Part shown: one piece after another, positions 660 to 41,635 of the stretch
Layout of the letters: each line of letters begins with the position of its first letter
Numbering within the stretch: position 1 is the stretch's first letter
From: Polyangiaceae bacterium
GTDB lineage: Bacteria; Myxococcota_A; Polyangia; Polyangiales; Polyangiaceae
Reading direction: 5' to 3'
Length of the DNA stretch: 64,000 bases
Assembly (NCBI GenBank): GCA_015075635.1
Contig: JABTUA010000001.1
Coordinates: 1,612,001-1,676,000 of the forward strand
Program-made: the position numbers and the translations under genes
Notes under the pieces: generated by a model
What the model was told of the DNA's origin: nothing
Databases searched by the model: none
Seen by the model: the letters and a program-made list of their open reading frames with translations, nothing else

Positions 660-669
660 GCCGACTGGC

Positions 670-2109
670 TCAGGGCGTCAGCGACAGGTCCGCGGAGAGC
701 AAGTTCGTTCCGGTCGTCGCGTCCCAGCCCGTGGCGTTCGCGAAGCGGATGGCGTACTCCGGGATCTCGCGCAGCGCGGGCGCAGGATCCGGCAGCCGGA
801 GCGCCAGCGAGTAGCTGCCCGGCGGCAGGGACGCTGGCAGGGGCACCGAGACGTCGAAAGCGTGACTGCCGGCGTCGAAGCGCCGCGGATCGACCGGGAG
901 CTTGGCCACGAAGCGGGTCGGGCCATCGAGGATCAGCTCGAGCTCGCGCGCGTGATAGGGCGCGGCGAAGCCGTCGTTGCGGAGCTTCACCGACAGGGGC
1001 AGCGCGCAGCCGGGGCTCGCCGTCTCCGGGAAGGTCGCCGACTCGAGCACCAGGCGATAGCCGAGCCGGCTCGCGATCTCGTCGTAGCAACCCTCGCTCT
1101 GGAAGCGGGCGAGGGCGGCGGGGTGGTAGACCGCGTTCAGGAAGGACCAGCGGAGCTGGCTCATCTCGGGCACGGCGACCTTGCAGGTCGTGCGCGCGGG
1201 GTAGTCCGCGCAGGTCTCGCCACCGATGGGCACGAAGCGCGTGTCCTCTCCGATCAGCGCCTTCCACGCGGCGGCCTGCCCGGACGGGTAGGTGCCCATG
1301 TCGTCGTCGCTGGCCAGGAAGCAGTCGTTGTGATGCCCGAGGCGCGAGACCGGCGTGCCGTCGAAGGCCTGGGCCGCGGTGACGGGACCTCCCGCGTGGT
1401 CGTGCTTGAAGCTCCAGCGGCGCACGAGCACGAACATGTCGGCGGGAGTCGCGGCGAGCAGCGCGTCCAGGATCGCCTTCTTGGCTGCGGCGTCGGTGTC
1501 GAGGCCGTTGCTGCTCGAGTGCCACTCGCCCCACGGACCGATGAAGCCCGCCTCGAGCACCGCGATCACGTCAGCGTGCTGCTTCAAGAGCGGGGCGAGA
1601 GCCTGAATGTGCTCGAGGATCCGCGGCAGCTTCGCGTCGTTGGGAGCCGCCATGTCGTTCCGGTACACGAAGCGCAGGATCACCTTGATCTTGGCGGCGC
1701 GGACCCGGTCGAGGCCCGCGGAGAGCTGGCTCAGGAAGCCGCTCGGGATGGGCGCGTCGAGGTAGTCGAGGAGCGACACGCCGGCGTAGGCCAGCGTGCG
1801 GCCCGCGGCGCGCACCCCCTGGAAGTCGTCGGTCGAGGCGAGATCGACGAAGTCGTGGAAGCCGCGTCCCGGATTCAGCACCTGCTCGCTCGGGCCGAGG
1901 GCGACGAAGGTGTGCAGGGTCGGGGCGCCGGGGCAGGCCGGCGCATCGGCGGAGGCGTCGCCGCCGGAGCCGCCGCCGCCGGCGCTGCCGCCGCTGCCGG
2001 CGCTGCCGCCGCTGCCAGCGGTTCCACCCGTCGCCGCGACCTCGGAGGTGTCGTCCCCACAGGCCGCGGCGAGCGCGAGCGGCACGAAGCAGAGCAGTGC
2101 TCGCGGCAT
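670..2109 (-). CDS. DUF4874/DUF4832-type secreted lipoprotein
   Basis: 479 residues. A short signal peptide ends in a lipobox (LAAAC, Cys about residue 17), followed by a Gly/Ser/Ala-rich linker to about residue 50. The folded part begins with an NPGRGF motif and a TIM-barrel-like region (VILRFVYR; GFIGPWGEWHSSS), features I associate with DUF4874 followed by DUF4832, a pair seen in secreted bacterial proteins presumed to act on carbohydrates. The C-terminal ~120 residues look like a beta-sandwich. Gene order gives no pathway. The catalytic role is unproven; the family call rests on motif memory. Confidence 0.7.
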   Translation of the reverse strand: MPRALLCFVPLALAAACGDDTSEVAATGGTAGSGGSAGSGGSAGGGGSGGDASADAPACPGAPTLHTFVALGPSEQVLNPGRGFHDFVDLASTDDFQGVRAAGRTLAYAGVSLLDYLDAPIPSGFLSQLSAGLDRVRAAKIKVILRFVYRNDMAAPNDAKLPRILEHIQALAPLLKQHADVIAVLEAGFIGPWGEWHSSSNGLDTDAAAKKAILDALLAATPADMFVLVRRWSFKHDHAGGPVTAAQAFDGTPVSRLGHHNDCFLASDDDMGTYPSGQAAAWKALIGEDTRFVPIGGETCADYPARTTCKVAVPEMSQLRWSFLNAVYHPAALARFQSEGCYDEIASRLGYRLVLESATFPETASPGCALPLSVKLRNDGFAAPYHARELELILDGPTRFVAKLPVDPRRFDAGSHAFDVSVPLPASLPPGSYSLALRLPDPAPALREIPEYAIRFANATGWDATTGTNLLSADLSLTP

Positions 2110-2172
2110 GCGCTTCTCAGCTCGCCGCTCCGGCGCGCTCGTTCAGCACCTTCTTGCGCTCCTGCACGGGGC

Positions 2173-3150
2173 TCAGGGCTCGAGCAGACACGAGCCGACG
2201 GTCTGCCGCGCCTCCATGGTGCGGTGAGCCTGCTCTGCTTCGCGGAGCGGCCAGCGCCGGGTGATGTCGATCTTCACGATGCCCCGAGCGACCACGTCGA
2301 ACAGGGCGTTGGCGCTCGCGATCAGCTCCTCGCGCTTGGCCGTGTAGGCCATCAGCGTGGGGCGAGTGAGGTAGAGGGAGCCCTTGGTCGAGAGCAGTTG
2401 CATGTCGAAGGGGTCCGGCTTGCCGGAGGCGTTGCCGAAGCCGACCAGCATGCCGCGCGGGGACAGGCAGTCGAGGGAGCCCAGGAAGGTGCTCTTCCCG
2501 ACGGAGTCGAATACCACCGGCACGCCGGCGCCGCCGGTCAGCTCGCGCACGCGCTTCGGGAAGTCTTCCTCCGTGTACACGATGGTGTGCGCGCAGCCGT
2601 GGGCCCGGGCCAGCTCCGCCTTCTCGCGGGAGCCGACGGTGCCGATGACGGTGACGCCGAGGTGACGGAGCCACTGGCAGGCGATGAGACCCACTCCGCC
2701 CGCCGCGGCGTGGAACAAGACGGTCTCGCCGCTCCGCACCGGCCGGCAGCGTTGCGTGAGGTACTCGACGGTCATGCCCTTGAGCATCATCGCGGCGGCC
2801 TGCTCGTCGGACACCGACGGCGGGACGTGCACCAGGCGATCGGCGGGGATCAGGCGCGCCTCGGCGTAGGCTCCCGGCGGACCGCCGGCGTACGCCACGC
2901 GATCGCCGACCTTCACCTCGGTCACGCCCGGCCCGATGCTCTCGACCACGCCGGCCGCTTCCATGCCGATGCCGTGGGGCAGGGCGGGGAGGGGATACAA
3001 GCCGCTCCGGTGATAGGTGTCGATGAAGTTCAGCCCGATGGCGCGGTGGCGCACCAGCGCCTGACCCGGTCCCGGCTCGGGCAGCGCGACCTCGTCGAGC
3101 GAGAGCACCTCGGGCCCGCCGGTTTGGTGGATGCGGATGGTCTTGGGCAT
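2173..3150 (-). CDS. qor: NADPH:quinone oxidoreductase (zinc-independent MDR family)
   Basis: 325 residues, the usual length for QOR enzymes, which reduce quinones with NADPH in the cytoplasm. The N-terminal GroES-like domain has the NFIDTYHRSGLYP signature and lacks the zinc ligands of alcohol dehydrogenases. The Rossmann domain carries AAAGGVGL at residues 148-155 for NADPH. The ATG start gives a standard N-terminus (MPKTIRIHQTGGPEVL). It lies 63 bp upstream of the DUF4832-type gene on the same strand, without evident functional linkage. Confidence 0.93.
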   Translation of the reverse strand: MPKTIRIHQTGGPEVLSLDEVALPEPGPGQALVRHRAIGLNFIDTYHRSGLYPLPALPHGIGMEAAGVVESIGPGVTEVKVGDRVAYAGGPPGAYAEARLIPADRLVHVPPSVSDEQAAAMMLKGMTVEYLTQRCRPVRSGETVLFHAAAGGVGLIACQWLRHLGVTVIGTVGSREKAELARAHGCAHTIVYTEEDFPKRVRELTGGAGVPVVFDSVGKSTFLGSLDCLSPRGMLVGFGNASGKPDPFDMQLLSTKGSLYLTRPTLMAYTAKREELIASANALFDVVARGIVKIDITRRWPLREAEQAHRTMEARQTVGSCLLEP

Positions 3151-3407
3151 GGCGGGGAGCTTAGGGCAGGGGCTGGTTCACGTCACCCGCGCAGGGAGCG
3201 CGCCATTGCGCTCGTTCTCTACTCGTCGGCGTCCGGCCAGTAGTCGAGTAGGTGCGACCGCGGTTGCGAGCGCATGCTGCTCACCGTGCGAGCGTAGCTC
3301 ACCGCTCCATCATCTGCGACACGAGACGCGATCATGGCACTTCGCCTCGTCCGGGCCGCGAAAGGTCTAGTGGCTACGGACCTCCAACGGGGTGTATATT
3401 GGTGAGT

Positions 3408-4628
3408 ATGGTCGTGAGCTGGCTGCGCGTGTCGTCGCTGTTGGTGCCGCTCGCCGTCGCGTTTGCCTGCACCTCCACCACGGAGCACTCGAAGACGGGA
3501 GCCGGGGGCGCCGGCGCCGGCGGTACCAGCGGCGCCAGCGGCGCATCGAGCAGCGCTGGCGCGAGCGGAGGAGCGGCGGGCACGCCGCCGTGCAACGACG
3601 GCGGTGTCCTCACGGACGAGAACAACTGCGGCTCGTGCGGCCATTCCTGCCTGGGAGGAGGATGCGTGGCCGGCAAGTGTCAGCCCGCGGTGGTCTTCTC
3701 CAAGCCGGGCTCGAGCTCGACCTCGGGCACTCTGGGTCCGCTGGTCGCCGACGGTCTTCACTTGTTCGTCGGGGACTCCGGAGATCTGGGGAAGTCGGTG
3801 CTGACGGGGGCGTTGTGGGTCATGGACCTCGACGGCAAGAACTTCGAGCGTCTCGACCCTGGCGGGTCCACGGAGGTCGTCGCCCTCGCGAGCGACTCGA
3901 CCACCGTCTACTGGACGTCGGCCGAAGGGGAGCTCAAGGCGGTCAACAAGGAGGGTGGGGCGGTCTCGTCGCTCGTCAGTGACCCGGTGACGATGCACGG
4001 AGTCGCGGTGTCCGGGAAGCATGCCTTCTACGTCGGTGGCACCACCGTGAAGCAGGTGTACCTGGTCGGCAACAAGAGCTGGCCGCTGACCGGACCGCTC
4101 CCGAATCCCCGCGCGCTCGCCGTGAGCGGCGGCGCTCTCTACCTCACCACGATGGGAAACGGCCCCGGGTTCCTGGATGGCACCGTCAGCCGAATCGCGG
4201 TCGACCTGGGCGACTCGCCCAGCCCAACGCTGAAGACCGTCGAGCCCCTCGTGTTGGATCAGTTCTCGCCGGGGCCCCTGGCCACCGACGCGACCCACGT
4301 CTATTGGAGCACCGCGGAGGGCGACATCCATCGAATGGCGTTCGTCGGGGCTGCGCCGGAGTACGTCGCAAAAGCGACCGATGCCGCCGATCAAGCGCCC
4401 CAGGCCATCGCCGTCGATGAGGCTCACGTGTACTGGACGAGCTGGGGGGCCTGCGTCACGACCGGCTGCACCATCCAGGGCCGCGTGCAGCGCGCGCCCA
4501 AAGCCGGCGGGTCGAAGAAAGAGGTGCTCGCCGAGGGCGAGATGCTGCCCACGGGTATCGCGGTCGCCCAAGGCGCGGTGTACTGGACGAACTGGTGGTT
4601 CGCCTCGGTGTCCCGCCTCGCGCTCTGA
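3408..4628 (+). CDS. Lipoprotein with beta-propeller-like repeats
   Basis: 406 residues from the ATG at 3408, chosen because it puts a hydrophobic signal peptide and lipobox (VAFAC, Cys about residue 21) at the N-terminus; the frame is open further upstream but that part is not signal-like. A Gly/Ala/Ser linker is followed by a Cys-rich CGSCGHSC segment, then repeats with recurrent VYWT/VYWS and ALAV motifs, as in DUF5050/NHL-type propellers of myxobacterial lipoproteins. It is probably an outer-membrane-anchored binding protein; the ligand is unknown. A hairpin-rich repeat array begins 20 bp after the stop codon. Confidence 0.8.
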   Translation: MVVSWLRVSSLLVPLAVAFACTSTTEHSKTGAGGAGAGGTSGASGASSSAGASGGAAGTPPCNDGGVLTDENNCGSCGHSCLGGGCVAGKCQPAVVFSKPGSSSTSGTLGPLVADGLHLFVGDSGDLGKSVLTGALWVMDLDGKNFERLDPGGSTEVVALASDSTTVYWTSAEGELKAVNKEGGAVSSLVSDPVTMHGVAVSGKHAFYVGGTTVKQVYLVGNKSWPLTGPLPNPRALAVSGGALYLTTMGNGPGFLDGTVSRIAVDLGDSPSPTLKTVEPLVLDQFSPGPLATDATHVYWSTAEGDIHRMAFVGAAPEYVAKATDAADQAPQAIAVDEAHVYWTSWGACVTTGCTIQGRVQRAPKAGGSKKEVLAEGEMLPTGIAVAQGAVYWTNWWFASVSRLAL

Positions 4629-4647
4629 AGACCTGACGGGTGAGCCA

Positions 4648-5330
4648 GCCGCGAAGCGGCGCGGCCGCGCGAGCGGCCCCGGGATCACCTCCCGGGTCTT
4701 GCCACGGTCAGATCACGATCCGTCAAAGAGGCGTGGCGCCCGAGAATACTGGCGAGGCCAGCGCGGGCATGTTGCAGGTGGGAAGAGCCGCCAGGCGGTG
4801 ACACGTGCGCGAGCGAGAATGAGAAATTCTCCGCCGCGAAGCGGCGCGGCCGCGCGAGCGGCCCCGGGATCACCTCCCGGGTCTTGCCACGCTCAGATCA
4901 CGATCCGCCAAAGAGGCGTGGCGCCCGAGATTACTGGCGAGGCCAGCGCGGGCATGTTGCAGGTGGGAAGAGCCGCCAGGCGGTGACACGTGCGCGAGCG
5001 AGAATGAGAAGTTCTCCGCCGCGAAGCGGCGCGGCCGCGCGAGCGGCCTCCGCCACTACGTCGTGGGTCTGGCCAAGATCAGATCACGATCGGCCACTGA
5101 GACCCAGACGCCCGCGAATACTGGCGAGGCCAGCGCCGGCATGTTGCAGGTGGGAAGAGCCGCCAGGCGCTGACACGTGCGCGAGCGAGAATGAGAAATT
5201 CTCCGCCGCGAAGCGGCGCGGCCGCGCGAGCGGCCTCCGGCACAGCATCTTGGATCTTGCCAAGATCAGATCCCGATCGGCCACTGAGACCCAGACGCAC
5301 GAGAATACTGGCGAGGCCAGCGCCGGCATG
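4648..5330 (+). repeat. Tandem array of a hairpin-rich ~185-bp repeat (3 full units plus a partial fourth)
   Basis: Units start at 4648, 4833, 5018 and 5205; the last stops at about 5330. Units 1 and 2 differ at only about four bases; units 3 and 4 diverge from them in the first half. Each unit contains GCCGC-GAA-GCGGC, then GGCCGC-GCGA-GCGGCC (a GNRA-type loop), a near-invariant core TCAGATCACGATC (4708, 4893, 5079; one change at 5266), and CTGGC-GAG-GCCAG. Units 1 and 2 add CCCGGGA/TCCCGGG. No frame looks like a protein. The array fills a convergent intergenic region and is read in the direction of the preceding gene. A diverged copy lies at 41531-41635. It may be an RNA structure, a REP-like element or a bidirectional terminator. 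Confidence 0.9.
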
Positions 5331-5385
5331 CATCAGCGAGCCACGATCGCCTGACGCCAGTGCAGGCGTGATCGCAAACGAAAAT

Positions 5386-6497
5386 TCAAACATAAGGATT
5401 CCAGCACGCCACGCGGTGATGGCTGCCCTTCTCAATCTCCTGCAAAGGCGGGCTCTCGACGTCGCACTTGCCCTTCTCCGCCCTGGGGCAGCGCGGGTGG
5501 AAGCTACAGCCGGTCGGTGGATCGATGGGGCTCGGGACGTCGCCCTCGAGCAAGATGCGCAGGCGGCGGCGGGCCGGATCGGGGACCGGGATGGCCGAGA
5601 GCAGCGCGCGCGTGTAAGGATGGTGGCGCTTTTCGTAGAGCGTGGCGGCCCGGGCGACCTCGACGATCTTGCCGAGGTACATCACGGCGACGCGCCGGCT
5701 CACGTATTCGACCACCTTGAGGTCGTGGGAGATGAACAGGTACGAGAGCTTGTACTCGTCCTGTAGGTCGAGCAGCAGGTTGACGATCTGCGCCTGGATC
5801 GACACGTCCAGGGCGCTGATGGGCTCGTCGCAGACGATGAAGTCCGGCTCGACGGCGAGCGCCCGGGCGATGCCGATGCGCTGGCGCTGGCCGCCGCTGA
5901 ACTCGTGGGGGTAGCGGTGCATCGCTTCGGGCCGGAGGCCCACCCGCGTGAGCAGGGCCTCGACCTTGGCCTCTTCCTCCGAGCGCGAGCTCGCCAGCTT
6001 GTGGATGCTGAGCGCCTCTCCCACGATGGCGCGGACGGTCATGCGTGGGTTCAGCGACGAGTACGGATCCTGGAAGATGATCTGCATGCGCCGCCGGAGC
6101 GGGCGCAGCTGGGCCTGGGAGAGCGGCGTGATGTCCTTCTGGTCGAAGACGATGCGGCCGAAGGTCGGCTCGATCAGGCGCAGCACGGTGCGGCCCAGCG
6201 TGCTCTTGCCGCAGCCGCTCTCCCCCACCAGGCCGAGCGTCTCGCCGGAGCGCACGTAGAAGGTCACGCCGTCCACCGCGCGCACCAGCTTGGTGCGGCC
6301 GAGCAGGCCCTTCCTGACCGGGAAGAACTTCGCCAGGCGCTCGACCTGGAGCAGCGTCTTCTTCTTCTCGCGCGGCGCCTCCGCGGCGTCGGGTGCCCCG
6401 GCCACCGCCGCAGCCGCTTCTTCCGCCGGCGGCTCCCAGAGCGCAGCGCTCCCGAGCTCGTCGTTACCGCCGTTCTTCTCCTTGTCGTCGGGCTCGC

Positions 6498-6501
<4 letters not shown>
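5386..6501 (-). CDS. Oligopeptide/dipeptide ABC transporter ATPase, OppF-type
   Basis: 371 residues. An Ala/Glu-rich N-terminal extension (residues 1-45) precedes a standard ATPase: Walker [10 protein letters not shown] at 93-101, Q-loop ([10 protein letters not shown]), signature FSGGQRQR and Walker [12 protein letters not shown]. The C-terminal oligopeptide-type domain includes the [10 protein letters not shown] Cys motif found in Opp/Dpp ATPases, some of which bind an Fe-S cluster. It follows the OppD-type ATPase with a 4-bp overlap, so the two probably form the heterodimeric motor of a peptide importer. No permease is adjacent; candidates lie at 39660-41461. The substrate cannot be told. 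Confidence 0.9.
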
Positions 6502-32092: not shown

Positions 32093-32944
32093 TCACTTGT
32101 CGACGCAGCTGCCGGACTTGGTGCCCGAAGAGCCGGTGCACGAGGCACCGCTCGGTACGAGGCAGGCGATGGCCGGGCAGATCACGCCGACGTTGCAGCC
32201 CGAGGTCACCCAGGAGGTCTTGAGCTGTTGCAGCTTGGTGATCTCCGCCGTGTTGGCCGGGTTCGCATAGGTCGAGCAGGGGCAGGCGAGCTGATCGTCG
32301 ACCAGCACCGTGCACTGCAGCGTCGGAAGGAGCGTGCTGCACTCCTTCGCGGCGGCGAGCGTCGTCTTGTAGTCCGCTTCGAGGCCGCTGCACGAGCTGC
32401 CGCCCGTGCCCCCGGTGCCGCCCTTGCCGCCCACGCCGCCGAAGCCGCCGATGCCGATGCCGCCCGTACCTCCGGTGCCGCCCTTGCCTCCGGTGCCGGC
32501 GGTTCCGCCGGTTCCGCCGATGCCGATGCCTCCGGTGCCGCCGGTACCAGTTCCACCCGTGCCGCCGCTGCCGCCCGTGGCCGAGCCGCCGGCGCCACCG
32601 CTGCCGCCGGTTCCAGGGCTGCCGCCGGTCCCCGAGCCGCCGCCGGCACCCGCGCTGCCGCCGGTCCCCGCGCCGCCGCCGGCGCCCGCGCCGCCGCCGG
32701 CGCCGCGCGCGCCGCCGGCGCCCGCGCTGCCACCCGAGCTAGTGCCGCCGGAGCTGGTGCCGCCGGAGCTCGCGCCGCCGGAGCTCGCGCCGCCGGAGCT
32801 CGCGCCGCCGGAGCTCGCGCCGCCGGAGCTCGCGCCGCCCGTGCTCTTGCCGCCGCTGCCGTCCGAACCGCCGTCGTCGCCGCCGCACGCCGCCGGCAAC
32901 CCCACCAACACCAGCGCGCCCAGACCAAGCCAGATCTTCTTCAT
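32093..32944 (-). CDS. Gly-rich repeat lipoprotein
   Basis: 283 residues from the ATG at 32944. Signal peptide and lipobox (LPAAC), an Asp/Gly segment, then about 160 residues of Gly-rich repeats: GGASS units followed by GGxGG and GIGGTGG runs. A small Cys-containing C-terminal domain follows (CSGLEADYKTTLAAAKEC; CTVLVDDQLACPC; CTGSSGTKSGSC). The linker probably extends the domain from the membrane. Such proteins are abundant in Polyangia; function unknown. Confidence 0.8.
   Translation of the reverse strand: MKKIWLGLGALVLVGLPAACGGDDGGSDGSGGKSTGGASSGGASSGGASSGGASSGGASSGGTSSGGTSSGGSAGAGGARGAGGGAGAGGGAGTGGSAGAGGGSGTGGSPGTGGSGGAGGSATGGSGGTGGTGTGGTGGIGIGGTGGTAGTGGKGGTGGTGGIGIGGFGGVGGKGGTGGTGGSSCSGLEADYKTTLAAAKECSTLLPTLQCTVLVDDQLACPCSTYANPANTAEITKLQQLKTSWVTSGCNVGVICPAIACLVPSGASCTGSSGTKSGSCVDK
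32736..32840 (-). repeat. 15-bp tandem repeat coding GGASS units
   Basis: Seven 15-bp units, of which about five (32766-32840) are identical or nearly so at the DNA level, within the Gly-rich lipoprotein gene. The repeat is in phase with codons, so copy changes would lengthen or shorten the linker without frameshift. Confidence 0.85.
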
Positions 32945-41461: not shown

Positions 41462-41530
41462 GTCACGCTCTTCATCTCGCTCCGCGGACTGGCCCCCAAC
41501 TCCTCGCGTCGCTTCCGCACGGTTCAAACA

Positions 41531-41635
41531 GCCGGCGCCCGGATTCGCCGGGTCTTCTCACTCTCCTCTCTTTGGCCGATCGTGATCTGATCTTGCCAAG
41601 CCCCATGGCGTGATTCCGGGCCCGGCCTGCGGCCG
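41531..41635 (-). repeat. Diverged single copy of the hairpin-rich repeat
   Basis: On the minus strand this carries the same core TCAGATCACGATC (41590-41578), then GGCCAAAGAG as in the 4.6-kb units. Upstream is CGGCC-GCA-GGCCG, replacing GGCCGC-GCGA-GCGGCC. Downstream is CCCGG-CGAAT-CCGGG, replacing CTGGC-GAG-GCCAG, preceded by a matching GAGAA. TTGGC and GCCAA can pair around the core. It lies 102 bp past the nosY stop, in the same orientation, between convergent genes, just as the array lies past its upstream gene. Confidence 0.75.

Follow-up and report, generated by a model that had tools for sequence, protein, structure and literature searches.

What is the tandem array that lies just past a gene end in a Polyangiaceae genome and looks, with its many hairpins, like a structured RNA? 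The window, the 64,000-nucleotide stretch of DNA analyzed here, holds this array at positions 4648 to 5330. We conclude, with a probability of about 0.85, that the array arose when a single copy of a mobile element was amplified in tandem; the element is GC-rich, nonautonomous, and MITE-like and belongs to a few Polyangiaceae genera. A striking "RNA-like" array would in this way be explained as mobile DNA.

Structure and surroundings of the array

TRF reported the stretch from 4648 to 5330 as a tandem array with a period of 185, 3.7 copies, 92% matches, and a score of 1042. It is the strongest tandem repeat within the 64-kb window by a wide margin, and the tandem organization described in the initial annotation is real. 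All four units lie on the plus strand. Unit 1 (4648 to 4832) carries the core TCAGATCACGATC at 4708 to 4720. Unit 2 (4833 to 5017; core at 4893 to 4905) differs from unit 1 at 4 bases, and the view of these two as recent duplicates holds. The core had been called near-invariant; it is exact in units 1 to 3, including unit 3 (5018 to 5204; core at 5079 to 5091), but reads TCAGATCCCGATC at 5266 to 5278 in unit 4 (5205 to 5385). Three stem-loops had been named, and all are present in the array. One of them, CTGGC-GAG-GCCAG (4749 to 4761 in unit 1, plus strand), is kept mostly unchanged as CCGGCGAGGCCGG elsewhere in the family. The repeat is not a product of chance: allowing at most 1 mismatch, a search of the source genome found 101 occurrences of the 13-base core and 0 of a reversed control.

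The units differ from one another by segment. Unit 3 matches unit 1 at 84% over the first 80 columns and at 98% over the last third. The first part of unit 3 is nearer to unit 4, with which it is shared at 90 to 96%. Over the last third, units 1 to 3 are 97 to 98% alike and the diverged unit 4 is 47 to 48% identical. Such a mosaic is consistent with several rounds of local duplication, the original right edge being retained by unit 4. The array had been thought to end at 5330. Unit 4 continues beyond that point with its diverged last third, and its match to the family profile extends to 5362; the array therefore takes up the whole space as far as the stop of the facing gene at 5386.

The description of the array as lying past the 3′ end of a gene was correct for the stop at 4628 but incomplete, since the array occupies the gap between two convergent genes, whose stops are at 4628 and 5386. 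The flanking gene (3408 to 4628, plus strand; TGA at 4626 to 4628; start codon uncertain) has no Pfam match. The facing gene (5386 to 6501, minus strand; stop TCA at 5386 to 5388) encodes an oligopeptide-type ABC transporter ATPase (PF00005, PF08352). In the source genome, a 4.7-kb segment (660 to 5385), made up of three genes with the array as its right end, parts the window's first gene (3 to 659) from the transporter gene. This segment is missing between the orthologous flanking genes of two relatives, G001 and G002, where the ortholog of the first gene directly faces the transporter gene across no more than about 10 bp. In three relatives (G001, G002, and G022), no array is present next to the orthologous transporter gene. 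A solitary b-type copy of the family was found by profile search at 41491 to 41623 on the minus strand (G000:C1:1653491-1653623). The window also contains a long low-complexity GC-rich tandem repeat at 32398 to 32855 (TRF periods 9 to 54).

A dispersed family, its ends, and its targets

The array is one site of an undescribed dispersed repeat family. BLAST with unit 2 found 47 places in the source genome, and a sequence-only profile (R1), built from 34 copies, raised the number in this 9.5-Mb Polyangiaceae genome to at least 150; the genomes are drafts, and copy numbers are lower bounds. The earlier view of an unnamed repeat family rather than satellite DNA was right. The core consensus across 134 copies is GTCTTGnCAnGATCAGATCnCGATCnGC, with most positions above 90%. 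Well-preserved copies are 200 to 270 bp long and contain no gene. Subfamily a comprises the array units, b has an extra left hairpin (GGCCGcAGGCCGAGC), d is marked by TCAGATCTCGATC, and c and e are without the extra hairpin. In some copies (among loci L029, L025, L034, and L284), the hairpin loop is interrupted by another GC-rich repeat, ACGCGCTTCGCGACGACCCTTGGAAGTCCCCGGAGGGGGATACCCGACGGGGTGG; at loci of the same set, the core contains a short sequence related to it, CGACCGGAGGAAGCACCC...GGGTG. The 70-bp form of this other repeat has 16 matches in the source genome.

Of 108 Polyangiaceae genomes, 10 carry the family, representing 3 of 48 genera, and its named bearers among the relatives are Polyangiaceae and Myxococcales MAGs. 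Single weak profile matches (E ~5e-4) in other families of the order (L094 in G026 and L095 in G028) are possibly due to chance. Copies in G022, from another genus, are of c type, with CTAG followed by nCTCGACTTGGGCAGTCTTGGCACGATCAGATC at the left and GCCCAAGTCGAGn followed by CTAG at the right. The c type has CTAG flanks, and its inverted repeats read (n)CTCGACTTGGGC; the exact 12-mer of the c-type end is too common for use as a search probe. At one G022 locus (L097, on C4), a second copy begins at the CTAG adjoining the right end of the first, a tandem insertion at the duplicated target. A third genus, represented by G093, has elements of about 270 bp in which the core is at both ends, inverted, inside a terminal repeat of about 40 bp; CTAG adjoins nACTACTTCGCCAGTCTTTGGCAGGAGCAGATCTCGATCGG on one side and nACTACTTCGCCAGTCTTGAATGGCCAGATCACGATCGG on the other. 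Derivatives of about 79 bp, composed of little more than the two ends fused at the core, occur in G093 at two separate loci, beside CTAG. In the source genus, the core is at one end only.

Terminal inverted repeats were found in the d, c, e, and G093 types. The d type has 17-bp ends, GGGGTGTCCCTAGTTCG...CGAATTAGGGACACCCC, with CTAG on each side; one d-type copy has GTAG on both sides. The e-type ends are CTCGACTTTCGC...GCGAAACCCGAG. Identical flanking 5-mers were present in 12 of 18 e-type copies, versus a permuted mean of 2.6 and a maximum of 8 in 10,000 permutations; where several right ends were possible, the better flanking match was chosen, which slightly favors agreement. These 5-mers (TCTGA, ACTGA, GCTGA, TCAGA, TCAGG, and TCATG) differ between copies and agree within a copy, and no duplication is longer than 5 bp. 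Target duplications across the family are either CTAG-like (4 bp) or NCTGA/TCAGN (5 bp). Duplication of TA only is excluded for the e type by its 5-bp duplications; the flanks of the CTAG types can equally be read as a TA-only duplication with the C/G belonging to the ends. Clear terminal repeats or target duplications were not found in the array units (a type) or in b-type copies.

Several insertion sites are empty in relatives. The site at C3:2119213 is uninterrupted in G001, where ...GCCTTCTGA adjoins CGAGTCACC with a single TTCTGA at the junction. The site at C1:582014 is empty in G001 and G002, and that at C1:1929676 is empty in G001, G002, and G022. The insertion at C1:136626, between orthologous genes whose proteins are 94 to 99% identical, is common to the source genome and G001; therefore, not all copies are recent.

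We postulate that a transposase supplied in trans would recognize the element ends, of which the conserved core GTCTTGnCAnGATCAGATCnCGATCnGC would be the inner part. It would mobilize the element and insert it at the short 4- or 5-bp targets, duplicating them. Surviving insertions would lie mostly between convergent genes, where the targets coincide with stop codons, and the 185-bp array would have arisen later through local tandem duplication. The dispersion of the family, the terminal inverted repeats, the target duplications, the empty sites, the core in both terminal repeats of the G093 elements, and the mini-elements are the observations that carry this explanation. We infer the transposase itself, its binding to the core, and the mechanism of amplification. 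The core is at both ends of the G093 elements and at the fusion point of the 79-bp derivatives, which argues that it is part of ends sufficing for dispersal. Its conservation may best be read as protein recognition of DNA; the core is most likely a DNA site recognized by the transposase rather than part of a structured RNA. The family most likely works in a MITE-like manner, as a nonautonomous DNA transposon; the array units themselves might still be mobile, clear ends and duplications having been seen only in other subfamilies. Counting against this explanation are the lack of clear ends and duplications in a- and b-type copies, the single-ended core of the source genus, and the differences among subfamilies in termini and target lengths, which are unusual for a single transposase.

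Searches with the left end of the d type (80 bp) and the right end of the e type (90 bp) revealed no insertion sequence with either end; all matches were additional copies, fragments, or a 75-bp internal deletion. No transposase gene with matching ends was found in the source genome or G093, which are drafts and in which the partner may be lost or its ends diverged. The core, common to different ends and targets, is a handle for finding this missing transposase. An internal-deletion derivative of the d type, about 75 bp, lies between two CTAGs in the source genome (L281, G000:C2:2522513-2522594).

Gene ends and stop codons

For the analysis of gaps between genes, genes were called with a simple home-made codon-usage caller. 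Of 150 listed copies, 149 lie outside predicted genes and 1 overlaps one. Gaps that bear an element are convergent in 48.5% of cases, versus 13.8% for the remaining gaps (Fisher P = 8e-15), and divergent in 7.5%, versus 24% (P = 1e-5). Such a distribution, together with the abundance of GC-rich hairpins, would be expected if the elements, however they originated, were kept because they insulate facing genes from each other or terminate transcription in both directions. Purifying selection alone also predicts the gap bias, because convergent gaps are without promoters; moreover, a scan of the array for terminator-like sequences gave 2 against 0.8 expected, and the tested sites are empty in relatives. 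We regard this role, which is compatible with a mobile element, as possible but not favored.

Among 30 insertions with both boundaries defined, 27 have a neighbor's stop codon within the duplicated target (e type, 11 of 12; d type, 16 of 18), and the ends of G093 elements abut TAG, TAA, or TGA. Both observations would fit active targeting of stop codons or gene 3′ ends by a mobile system, as opposed to survival there by selection. However, the median length of convergent gaps that lack an element is 6 bp, and 64 to 68% of the suitable targets in them already overlap a stop codon, which leaves a small excess (P = 0.06 and 0.018). Strong stop-codon targeting looked overwhelming against a genome-wide null and shrank when the null was restricted to convergent gaps; we rejected it in that form, and we consider active targeting unlikely. 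Because convergent gaps are tiny and the targets resemble stop codons, survival in a compact genome together with stop-codon-like targets accounts for most of the overlap. With considerable doubt, we speculate that the machinery might prefer gene ends and insert into the stop codon between facing genes (TAG or TGA within the duplicated target), with the subterminal core kept while outer ends and target length were exchanged between lineages. No relevant report of stop-codon-targeting insertion elements was found in the literature searched. With its many natural insertions at the stop codons of facing genes, the family offers material in which aiming and survival can be tested against each other.

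RNA structure and comparison with known repeats

The initial annotation read the stems around an invariant loop as suggesting a structured RNA. The array could then be a 3′-UTR element or small RNA, multiplied in tandem, whose stems present the core as a loop. Each unit does contain several perfect local stem-loops, the core is strongly conserved, and the hairpin CCGGC-GAG-GCCGG is kept in most copies; this best hairpin is nearly invariant and so carries little information on the RNA reading either way. However, the predicted fold of a single array unit is no more stable than that of dinucleotide-shuffled sequence, whichever strand is taken (z = −1.4 and −1.0). Subfamily consensus fold energies are near those of shuffled controls on both strands, and the sole type to reach z = −2.5/−3.1, again on both strands, is d, whose long terminal repeats pair. 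RNAalifold gave no consensus structure from a mixed 34-sequence alignment. The covariation test that the initial annotation had set as a check, run on three subfamily alignments (41, 26, and 26 copies), found none above background: among the top 60 covarying columns there were 3, 11, and 6 base pairs, against background fractions of 0.093, 0.234, and 0.121, so that the strongest columns were not enriched for pairs. Elements in codirectional gaps show no preferred orientation (31 versus 40), Rfam returned no relevant match at either lax or curated thresholds, and the core belongs to both DNA ends in G093. With covariation at background level, no bias toward one strand, and nothing relevant in Rfam, the structured-RNA interpretation is not supported by these comparisons, and we judge it improbable.

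A REP-type element had been suggested as well. REP/BIME-type palindromes, whose movement depends on a RAYT (Y1) transposase, resemble the present family in being GC-rich, extragenic hairpins near the 3′ ends of genes that occur in tandem clusters, and the location is indeed REP-like. REPs are palindromes of 20 to 40 bp, and most can be grouped according to whether one end carries a GTAG or a CGTC tag (PMC3733652). Short palindromes tagged in this way were not what we found: the present elements are 200 to 270 bp long, with terminal inverted repeats and 4- to 5-bp target duplications, and are not REPs proper. We consider REP/BIME membership very improbable.

The MITE-like reading, in contrast, places the family beside bacterial MITEs such as Correia/NEMIS, ERIC, and RUP (PMC2229807, PMC10969869), which are likewise short, noncoding, dispersed, and intergenic, with terminal inverted repeats, target duplications, stem-loops, and no transposase of their own. 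Those elements are AT-rich and use TA targets, whereas the present family is GC-rich, has CTAG-like or NCTGA targets of 4 to 5 bp, and combines terminal sequences that differ between subfamilies with a common subterminal core. QMITE2 of Coxiella burnetii is reported mainly from 3′ untranslated regions of open reading frames (PMC10969869); the likeness is in reported location alone, and the tight fit between facing stops was measured for the present family only. In the literature searched, we found no description of repeats of this kind in Polyangiaceae or in Myxococcales/Sorangium. The family adds to Polyangiaceae a large GC-rich MITE-like group with a shared subterminal core and differing outer ends and target lengths.

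The BrickBuilt MITE/minisatellite of Porphyromonas gingivalis (PMC4596501) also combines a MITE with tandem repetition. In BrickBuilt, the tandem repeat is 23 nt long and internal to one element, whereas in the present family the repeated unit is the whole element of about 185 bp or, elsewhere, its 3′ half of about 95 bp. The 3′ half alone is in tandem at L159 (G000:C1:2872423-2872883) and L155 (C1:2664395, 2664492), with a period of about 95 bp and five copies at one place. Whole-element arrays with 153- to 161-bp spacing were found too. At another locus (L004), a tRNA gene (1695 to 1766, minus strand) lies within 20 bases of the a-type copy that most closely resembles the units of the array.
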